DNA from: a virus
DNA length: 25,207 nucleotides
IMG/VR virus record: IMGVR_UViG_3300025886_000147
Span: 1 to 25,207 of that record
Strand: one strand, 5' to 3'
Notes under the pieces: model-generated
What the model saw: only the letters and a program-made list of their open reading frames with translations
Databases searched by the model: none
Told to the model about the DNA's origin: nothing
Shown here: positions 2,593-24,989 of the stretch, piece after piece
How positions within the stretch are numbered: the first letter of the stretch is position 1
How the letters are laid out: each line of letters begins with the position of its first letter
Program-made: the position numbers and the translations under genes

Positions 2593-2755
2593 AAACGAAC
2601 ATCGGGCTTTGCTTAACCGCTGGCTTGAAGAGAGCGACATTGAGGACCATGACATGGCACAAATCGTCCTGACCGATGTTGAAGAATGGATGGACGAGGA
2701 AGTTGTTGATTTTGAGTGCGACATGAGCCTCGATGACGAAGAACACGAAGCGTAA
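2555..2755 (+). CDS. Small acidic protein of unknown function
   Basis: A 66-residue acidic protein whose C-terminal half is dominated by Asp and Glu (TDVEEWMDEEVVDFE, DMSLDDEEHEA). It starts inside the preceding gene with no obvious SD and ends inside the following one, fitting the overlapping style of this operon. It could be a small helical accessory protein; no family is recognised. Being strongly acidic and next to a strongly basic protein is compatible with an interaction, but that is speculation. Confidence 0.5.
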   Translation: MPKQSLTPHQQFKNEHRALLNRWLEESDIEDHDMAQIVLTDVEEWMDEEVVDFECDMSLDDEEHEA

Positions 2756-3164
2756 AGGCTACATTTACGAGCAGACTTTCTTCACTGAAGCGTTAAAGAA
2801 TGGGTTGGAAGTTTTCATCCCACTAGGTGACCATTTACCAGTTGACTGTATCCTCGTAAATTCGGCGGGCAAAAATTTTAATGTCCAAATTAAGGGGTCT
2901 GAAAAGTCAAGCAAAGGGGAACGAAAAAACGGGTGCAAACGGTATCGATTTTCCACGACTACTGGGCGGGTAGTAAAGCAACCACTAGACTGCACAAAAG
3001 TCGATATAGTGGCAATATTTTGTGCCGACATAAACACCTGGTATCTAATCCCATGTATGGCTCTAGATGGAGCATTAACAGTTGCGGTTTACCCGGACAA
3101 CCCCGAGTCCAAAGCAAAACACGAAAAATATCGGGAAGCGTGGGACTTATTTAAAACTCCCTGA
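2733..3164 (+). CDS. PD-(D/E)XK nuclease-like protein
   Basis: This 143-residue protein resembles the compact PD-(D/E)XK endonuclease family (the type called PD(D/E)XK endonuclease, PF11645). The expected elements occur in order: an N-terminal helix with Glu13 (KGYIYEQTFFTEAL), an LGDHLPVDCIL strand with Asp38, and then VQIKG with Gln52 and Lys54, a QxK variant of the (D/E)xK motif. A basic stretch with an aromatic strand follows (KRYRF), then DIVAIFCADINTWYLIP, typical of the fold's last strands. It overlaps the upstream gene by 23 bases and sits between portal and scaffold genes, an unusual place for a nuclease. It could trim or resolve packaged DNA, attack host or competitor DNA, or be a degenerate accessory gene. 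The cut specificity is unknown. Confidence 0.65.
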   Translation: MTKNTKRKGYIYEQTFFTEALKNGLEVFIPLGDHLPVDCILVNSAGKNFNVQIKGSEKSSKGERKNGCKRYRFSTTTGRVVKQPLDCTKVDIVAIFCADINTWYLIPCMALDGALTVAVYPDNPESKAKHEKYREAWDLFKTP

Positions 3165-22800: not shown

Positions 22801-22804
22801 TAAT

Positions 22805-23050
22805 CTATTCCCGCTCGATTTCCTCGATGTAGAAATCTCCGACCTCTCGCATTAGCTTGGCGATAGCGGATGCATCCTTAATAGGTTCATCGATAAAAGT
22901 AGGGTCAAATGTTTCGCTCCCATCTTCCGCCACCACTATCTCGGCAATCAATTTAGGGCTGTGGAGGTGGACAACAAATGTCCGGTCCTCTGTATCGCCG
23001 ATGATAAACTTTGGGAATTTTGCCTCAAAACTTTCTAAGTCATTAACCAT
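22805..23050 (-). CDS. Small protein downstream of the recombinase
   Basis: An 81-residue acidic protein on the minus strand. It begins MVNDLESFEAKFPKFIIGDT and has alternating beta strands and a C-terminal helix (AKLMREVGDFYIEEIERE). The SD AGAGGA at the right distance overlaps the recombinase stop codon, so the two genes form a leftward operon with coupled translation. No DNA-binding motif or family is recognised. It could be a recombinase accessory factor or a lysogeny gene by position; this is inference. Confidence 0.65.
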   Translation of the reverse strand: MVNDLESFEAKFPKFIIGDTEDRTFVVHLHSPKLIAEIVVAEDGSETFDPTFIDEPIKDASAIAKLMREVGDFYIEEIERE

Positions 23051-23054
23051 AATA

Positions 23055-23969
23055 TTATCCTCTTGGGTGGGCTAGGCCGTGGACTTCTTTAAGCCGGGCG
23101 CTAGAAACATGGGTGTAAATTTGTGTACTCGATAAGCTTGAATGCCCGAGTAATTCCTGAATTGCACGAAGATCCGCACCATTATCAAGTAAGTGAGTAG
23201 CGAATGAATGTCGAAGCTTGTGCGGGGTGATATCATGCGGAAGCTCCGCGAAGTTTAAATACTTTTTAATCAGATATTGGACCGACCGAGTGGTAAACCT
23301 CTTACCAAAAGAATTTATAATGACTGGATCGGACTTTTTCGATTTCTTGGCAAACATATGCCTAAACTTTTGGACTGTGTCGCTGGCCTGTTTACCGATA
23401 ACTACCATTCTTTCCTTCTGACCTTTCCCGACTACCTTTATAGTTGAGCGAACAAAATCAATATCCTCGTAATTAATGCTAACTAATTCGCTAACCCGCA
23501 AACCCCCAGCATAAAGAAGCTCTAAAATCATCAAATCCCTCAATGAATTAAATTTTATTCCTACGCCCTTCGGCTCATTGGCGGGCGGTTGCTTCATCAG
23601 CTTAGTCATCTGATCTTCAGACAAAACTTTGGGCAATGGCTTACTAAGCTTGGGCAGAGCGATATTTAAAAATGGATTTATTGTGGCAAGCTTACGAGTC
23701 CGGCAAAAAGTAAAAAAGGTACGGAGGCCCGAAATATGATGCCTAAGTGTTCGGCGGGATATTTGATTCTGTACCTCAATGCAGTAACTTCTAGCCTGTT
23801 GCCGGGTAACCTCAGAGGGTAGGGCGACCTTCTCCTCCTTCTTAGCCCAGGTAAAAAATAACTCAATGGCGTGTTTATAGTTACGGACCGTGTAAGGTGA
23901 TAATCGGCGGACTACTTTCATGTATTCAATAAACTCAGAAAGTTCAAAAAGTACAATTTTGTCGGCCAT
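23055..23969 (-). CDS. int: Tyrosine recombinase (Xer-like phage integrase)
   Basis: A 304-residue site-specific recombinase of the XerC/XerD type. The SAM-like N-terminal domain (LSPYTVRNYKHAIELFFTWA) is followed by the catalytic domain with every expected residue: Arg158 (YAGGLRVSEL), Lys182 (VGKGQKER), His250 and Arg253 (HKLRHSFATHLL), His276 (LLGHSSLSSTQ) and the nucleophile Tyr285 (IYTHVS). It ends with the Xer-like RLKEV...AHPR. The frame is open to a TTG at 24020, but ATG 23969 (MADKIVLFEL) gives the standard length. No SD is evident at either start. It lies at the junction of late and early regions next to an inverted-repeat region, so integration or excision of this phage is the likely role; resolution of multimers is an alternative. 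Confidence 0.93.
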   Translation of the reverse strand: MADKIVLFELSEFIEYMKVVRRLSPYTVRNYKHAIELFFTWAKKEEKVALPSEVTRQQARSYCIEVQNQISRRTLRHHISGLRTFFTFCRTRKLATINPFLNIALPKLSKPLPKVLSEDQMTKLMKQPPANEPKGVGIKFNSLRDLMILELLYAGGLRVSELVSINYEDIDFVRSTIKVVGKGQKERMVVIGKQASDTVQKFRHMFAKKSKKSDPVIINSFGKRFTTRSVQYLIKKYLNFAELPHDITPHKLRHSFATHLLDNGADLRAIQELLGHSSLSSTQIYTHVSSARLKEVHGLAHPRG

Positions 23970-24038
23970 ATGTTTTGTTATTTTATTTATGCGGATTTGT
24001 AAAGCTGTTTGCCTTCGCAAACACTGGTAAGGCTGTTA

Positions 24039-24145
24039 TTTTCTTTCGCTAACCCTTGCGTTAGAATTAGTCCACTTTATAGCAATTTAGTCCTTGCATG
24101 GGTGTTTGCAGTCCAATATTGTACGCAAGCACTAGCGAAAGAAAA
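24039..24145. repeat. Long imperfect inverted repeat upstream of the integrase
   Basis: The left arm (24039-24061) is TTTTCTTTCGCTA, four bases, TTGCGT. The right arm (24123-24145) is ACGCAA, four bases, TAGCGAAAGAAAA. Nineteen of 23 positions pair, and the four mismatches are clustered in the middle of each arm. The arms enclose 61 bases. Two bipartite half-sites of this form fit recombinase or dimeric protein binding better than a transcript hairpin. Confidence 0.85.
24094..24122 (+). promoter_or_regulatory. Possible sigma-70-type promoter for the rightward early genes
   Basis: TTGCAT (24094-24099) and TATTGT (24117-24122) are separated by 17 bases, a fair match to -35 and -10 boxes, and lie 25 bases before the ATG at 24148. 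The -10 box abuts the right arm of the inverted repeat, so a protein bound there would affect initiation. The match is only moderate and the sequence is AT-rich, so chance is possible. Confidence 0.3.
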
Positions 24146-24147
24146 AT

Positions 24148-24549
24148 ATGAAAAAAGGTACTAAAAAATGGATAAATGACTTAAGTTGCACATTATACTA
24201 TAAGGGTGAGACTCGTAAGTGTTTTGCGCAAGATTTTAGGCATATGAGACTAAAGCTTCCCGAGGCGGTTCAGCGGAAGTGGAAATTATGGTGTAATATG
24301 AATAGTGACAGACTAGCTCAAGTAAGTAATAATGAGTGGCATGGACATACTATATGTGCCACTGGCGAACGAATTAACTACACCATCATTGACCGCAAGG
24401 ACAAGGTTAAAGAGGCGGCTAGGCTTTTGGGTCAGGTTGGCGGCCAAGCTGGATATGGTAAGAAAAAAGTTCGGGGAGATTCAAATTATTACCGCTTACT
24501 CCGAGCTAAAAGAACGATTAAAGAGTCACAAAAAAATAAGAAAAAATGA
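24148..24549 (+). CDS. Basic protein of unknown function
   Basis: A 133-residue, Lys/Arg-rich protein, first gene of the rightward early region. It has a beta-rich start (DLSCTLYYKGETRKCFAQDF), HMRLKLPEAVQRKWKLW in the middle, HGHTICATGERINYTIID and a long basic C-terminal helix ending in KKK. Two Cys in the first half and a Gly-rich basic loop (GGQAGYGKKKVRG) are notable. No SD is clear. The basic character suggests nucleic-acid binding, but no fold is recognised. Its stop overlaps the next start (ATGA). Confidence 0.6.
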   Translation: MKKGTKKWINDLSCTLYYKGETRKCFAQDFRHMRLKLPEAVQRKWKLWCNMNSDRLAQVSNNEWHGHTICATGERINYTIIDRKDKVKEAARLLGQVGGQAGYGKKKVRGDSNYYRLLRAKRTIKESQKNKKK

Positions 24550-24797: not shown

Positions 24798-24989
24798 ATG
24801 GAAAAACTACTAAATCAATATCACAATTTATTTCTCACGAAGCGTGAGGTCAAAGAAATTTTCAGATTAAATTCTGATAAGGCTTTGCAAACTTTCAAGC
24901 GAGAGTTTGGTATTCGGAAAAGAGGCCAGCTTTATTTGGCTTCTGATGTTAAAAAAGTAATTGCCATCTTCTCCGAGGAGGCCGCATGA
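24798..24989 (+). CDS. Excisionase-like helix-turn-helix protein
   Basis: A 63-residue protein with one winged-helix or MerR-type HTH: LFLTKREVKEIFRLNSDKAL is the helix-turn-helix and the rest (FKREFGIRKRGQLYLASDVK, then KVI) gives the wing and the trailing helix. That T..E......S..AL...KR.F.I...G..YL...V layout is typical of excisionases and small phage DNA-binding regulators. It lies downstream of operator-like palindromes, and its stop overlaps the RuvC-like start (ATGA). It may direct excision by the nearby recombinase or regulate the early operon; both are inference. Confidence 0.6.
   Translation: MEKLLNQYHNLFLTKREVKEIFRLNSDKALQTFKREFGIRKRGQLYLASDVKKVIAIFSEEAA

Follow-up and report, generated by a model that had tools for sequence, protein, structure and literature searches.

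Between the late and the early genes of a tailed phage lies a short segment that, judging from sequence comparison among related phages, probably controls transcription of the early operon. Two operators would stand around one promoter, and repression would probably involve looping of the DNA. The DNA analyzed here in its whole length, called the window below, is an IMG/VR record of 25,207 bases from a phage with an SU10-type capsid protein. Late genes extend to 22760 and are followed by a leftward gene for an 81-aa protein, a leftward gene for a tyrosine recombinase, an inverted repeat, and then rightward early genes from 24148. The early gene set downstream includes a DNA polymerase A, a nuclease, a dNMP kinase and an AAA ATPase. 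The elements of the segment are listed here in map order.

24039 to 24061, no strand: left arm of the inverted repeat (from arm comparison)
24046 to 24061, minus strand: left operator-like site, ACGCAAGGGTTAGCGA, one of the two sites per genome, found in 42 of 42 loci
24064 to 24093, plus strand: three imperfect 10-bp repeat units, GAATTAGTCC, ACTTTATAGC and AATTTAGTCC, recognized by self-identity at a lag of 10
24094 to 24099, plus strand: -35-like hexamer TTGCAT, with TTG here in all non-redundant loci
24117 to 24122, plus strand: -10-like hexamer TATTGT, after a spacer of 17
24123 to 24138, plus strand: right operator-like site, ACGCAAGCACTAGCGA, overlapping the predicted transcription start and 5' leader
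24123 to 24145, no strand: right arm of the inverted repeat (from arm comparison)
24138 to 24143, plus strand: ribosome-binding region of the gene at 24148, AAAGAA here and AAAGGA in most close relatives
24148 to 24549, plus strand: first early gene, p133, encoding 133 aa without a known family

Relatives were collected by searching viral contigs with p133, which gave 16, then 24 and then 43 loci; 42 loci, the window counted in, were read upstream of p133. Identity to the p133 protein of the window is about 55-98% among the relatives, and structure comparison of the predicted p133 fold gave no matches. A DNA similarity search of a phage collection likewise returned nothing, and the contigs returned by an exact 14-mer scan were mostly unrelated. 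The nearest phage record by portal is C75C1, in which a strict motif finds no site within the 33 kb searched; the literature on C75C1 and on this kind of phage yielded nothing useful. Two other genes of the window may be mentioned. Positions 1-156, just before the portal gene, encode the C-terminal portion of a small protein resembling sigma-70 region 4 (PF04545, E 1.7e-7), possibly a phage transcription factor, and a PD-(D/E)XK endonuclease-like gene (PF11645) lies among the head genes at 2733-3164.

In each of the 42 loci a dyad-like site, ACGCAA-N4-TWG, is present twice, one copy inverted relative to the other. Departures from this form are few: A[C/G]GCAA in some, and in L213-L216 a right site with TTT in place of TWG. 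The site is 13-16 bp long, the outer half of the dyad being weak, and the two copies differ in their centers, the left one nearly always reading GGGN and the right one usually SCAN. When ten genomes or large contigs, including the window, were scanned with a site matrix, only these two copies were found in each; they score 23-29 bits, except for the left site of one genome (G017, 15.3 bits), and the next best score elsewhere is 12.3. The right site extends into the ribosome-binding region of p133. In three loci (L217, L226 and L227) the left site is lengthened to CGCAAG-N6-CTTGCG, overlapping the N4 dyad.

The spacing between the two sites is 61 bases in 22 loci, 71 in 19 and 70 in one. Loci of the 71 class have one repeat unit more than those of the 61 class. 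The difference is about one helical turn, which would leave the two sites facing the same way relative to each other. The two classes probably reflect one indel event, and the helical phasing is thus not independently replicated.

How much weight should be given to the inverted repeat itself? The original prediction placed its arms correctly, with 61 bases between them, but counted 19 matches in 23 and four mismatches; there are 20 matches, and the three mismatches are central, at arm positions 14-16. The pair is the top inverted repeat within 200 bases across the whole window. Its score was reached by 7 of 200 dinucleotide shuffles of the whole window and by none of 2000 shuffles of the 127-base intergenic stretch. 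Taken alone, the repeat is only modestly improbable, and since 7 of 200 window shuffles equal its score it is by itself weak evidence. It is not a product of chance because it is conserved in 41 relatives, not because its arms are long. The original prediction named arms that are not conserved in relatives as a point against it, and here the outcome is split, the inner ACGCAA...TWG part being conserved and the outer GCGAAAGAAAA lineage-specific.

An inverted repeat of this size could also act as a stem-loop in RNA or DNA, either as a riboregulator or as a long stem that sequesters the ribosome-binding site. The window sequence does fold better than its shuffles (z -2.9), and the ribosome-binding region falls in the right arm. 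However, when the 20 complementary pairs were taken as the structure, one-sided changes were found to break pairing (at alignment pair 25-111 in 13 of the 23 sequences, at pair 30-106 in 5), and pairs changed on both sides were not clearly more numerous than in shuffles, the count being reached by 55 of 500. Most shuffles have a lower total of paired cells and a lower covariation score, which related repeated sites would also produce, and the inner seven pairs keep their sequence, as a protein site would. An Rfam search gave no matches, and the promoter would sit in the loop. Base-pairing is not conserved, which argues that this is not an RNA stem, and we consider the stem-loop reading very unlikely.

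The neighboring recombinase gene invites several other readings. The features that bear on these are as follows.

22804 to 24038, no strand: presence/absence region with the 81-aa gene and the integrase, ending at the left arm
23055 to 24020, minus strand: XerC-like tyrosine recombinase, an optional cassette, with a plausible ATG start at 23967-23969

The recombinase scores 312 bits against TIGR02224, under the cut-off of 335, and a domain search of the protein gave no matches to an arm-binding domain. Among 24 records, the integrase is present in three, namely the window and two relatives 99% identical to it; it was not found in the other 21 records searched, some of which are fragments. Otherwise similar phages have no insert, the 81-aa gene only, or the 81-aa gene plus the integrase, and in every insert state homology restarts at the left arm. 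The site pair is present in all 21 integrase-less records but one (G016), which is cut before the locus. A palindrome, TGTTTGC-CTTC-GCAAACA (7+4+7), lies at 24006-24023 within the integrase cassette and is absent from phages that lack the cassette; it is a candidate recombinase core site or hairpin.

The original prediction suggested that the repeat might be the attP core/arm array of a Xer-like phage recombinase; in the form weighed here, the arms would be the core sites. The adjoining recombinase gene is in keeping with this, as is the central position of the mismatches in the arms, which would be expected of core sites with different overlap regions. It is difficult to reconcile with sites that are kept in relatives lacking the integrase, one of which (G003) has overlapping contig ends and is therefore effectively complete, or with a cassette that adjoins a left site which relatives own without it. 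Moreover, there is no dif-like sequence, and the recombinase is XerC-like and matched no arm-binding domain. The attP reading fares poorly on these grounds and is quite improbable; the 24006-24023 palindrome is a better core candidate than the arms. Prophages sought by p133 in genome contigs were not found, and a search by portal gave only one contig (L187), with no att junction. That contig is phage-like, 7 kb long, has a portal 72% identical and is binned in a Verrucomicrobiota MAG, a weak host lead by which phages of this group possibly infect Verrucomicrobiota. A host dif looked for in this MAG gave nothing convincing, the matches being no more than in a reversed control.

A promoter between inverted repeats, with a tyrosine recombinase adjoining, could equally bring to mind a recombinase-invertible switch, also raised in the original prediction. 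The inner part has the same orientation in 42 of 42 loci, most of them without a recombinase, and of all the readings weighed here we give this one the least credence.

A dif/Xer site, with two 11-bp half-sites and a 6-8 bp center, was tried as a candidate and rejected; the conserved core is ACGCAA-N4-TWG, and the outer arm is variable. This agrees with the earlier statement that the repeat is not a dif site. A related idea dispenses with the phage integrase altogether, the locus being an attachment site for host XerCD (IMEX-like), comparable to the inverted site pair of CTX phage. Two inverted sites do surround a promoter in integrase-less phages, and the TTTTAACGCAA half resembles by eye the reverse complement of a XerD half-site, 8 of 11 positions being alike. 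The conserved dyad center of 4 bp nevertheless differs from XerCD sites, in which two arms of 11 bp enclose 6 bp (PMC5357621). Conservation does not extend to the outer arm, and no prophage was found by either p133 or portal. Host XerCD use is extremely unlikely.

We return to the operator-promoter reading and to the segment between the two sites. Upstream of the -35 element the sequence has a 10-base period, with a mean lag-10 self-identity of 0.54 in 14 non-redundant loci and a z of 12 against shuffles, a value that is optimistic because these loci are related to each other. The sequence of the repeat units themselves varies between lineages. The phased AGTCC repeats of the original prediction are present at 24069, 24089 and 24110, spaced by 20 and 21, and belong to this periodic stretch. 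Its candidate promoter, sigma70-like in form, also stands: TTGCAT-17-TATTGT at 24094-24122 is conserved in relatives, yet falls below a consensus scanner and is weak against the E. coli consensus. In 11 of the 14 non-redundant loci, TTG followed at a spacing of 16-18 by TAnnnT precedes p133 and stops 0-3 bases before the right site, so that this site covers the predicted start; in the other three TAnnnT is missing.

A protein that might bind the repeats is encoded a little further downstream.

24798 to 24989, plus strand: p63, a 63-aa winged-helix-turn-helix (wHTH) protein with an excisionase/BldC-like shape in its structure model

The model of p63 is a small wHTH (pLDDT 88), and the gene is conserved along with the locus. 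Matches to excisionase and regulator PHROG profiles are weak, and the Foldseek match to BldC (E about 3, 2.9; TM 0.51-0.57) is not significant, so that binding of p63 to the 10-bp repeats, though plausible, is a lead. BldC, a wHTH protein of 68 aa, binds direct repeats that follow each other at one helical turn, their consensus being AATTXXXX(C) (PMC5859096), and oligomeric wHTH excision factors act similarly (PMC11963761). The locus is like these arrays in having repeats one turn apart, AATT-like units (AATTTAGTCC and AATTTCTGCC) and a 63-aa wHTH gene downstream; it differs in that p63 has no significant sequence or fold match to BldC, and the array is a predicted one. Perhaps a BldC/Xis-like protein of the early operon polymerizes on the phased repeats between the operators, with repeat number shifting only by whole turns and repeat sequence co-diverging with the protein, but we regard this as doubtful.

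Phased repeats at the head of replication genes raise the main rival explanation, a replication origin, which would share several features of a control region. A phage initiator would bind both dyads as well as the 10-bp repeats, and the promoter would prime or activate replication. The single locus per genome, the iteron-like, helically phased repeats and the position all agree with an origin. On the other hand, no initiator gene was recognized, and the sites fall exactly on the promoter and start site. GC skew in one relative (G001) has no sign change here, which is uninformative given the uniform gene direction. On balance an origin seems unlikely. A DNA packaging or genome-end site between the late and early genes is less likely still. 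Genome ends of T7-like phages lie at this map position, and in lambda cosB, too, inverted binding sites occur in a pair with bent DNA between them. Contigs, however, pass through the locus, the ends of two relatives (G001 and G003) lie and overlap elsewhere, and the terminase genes are distant on the map.

What comparison of the relatives brings out is the site pair, its spacing, the periodic repeats and the promoter-like elements; from these we infer operator function, looping, bending and the wHTH array. In the simplest scheme, a candidate regulator dimer would occupy both sites. At the right site it would block RNA polymerase, and at the left site, on the same helical face, it would strengthen repression by way of a short DNA loop. 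The 10-bp repeats would either bend the DNA or bear a head-to-tail array of a small wHTH protein, plausibly p63; the p63 gene lies downstream and reads the same way, and autoregulation of the early genes would result. The integrase is an optional neighbor and lies outside this device. The original prediction included an operator segment controlling divergent genes, a reading that is borne out in kind. Two dyad-like sites do flank a conserved promoter, but the predicted control serves the rightward early operon; the divergence is accidental, the leftward integrase being absent from most relatives.

Looping operators of the lac and lambda OL/OR type are among the closest known likenesses to this locus, with its two inverted dyad-like operators on a probably fixed helical face, its one promoter and its predicted start under one operator. 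They differ from the present case in that the spacing here is short, 77 or 87 bp center to center, and the loop is a predicted one. The half-site ACGCAA with a 4-base center also matches the PurR-type operator, ACGCAAACGTTTGCGT; here the other half-site is weaker, being variable after TWG, and CG is missing from the center, and the match is a lead only.

A conserved early promoter/operator region, as predicted here from sequence, is ordinary in kind, and its conservation is well supported. The result would define, for a group of uncultured phages, a conserved region of early control. An element beside an integrase is also easily misread as attP or as an invertible switch, and this is corrected here, since relatives without the integrase show that the element is independent of it.
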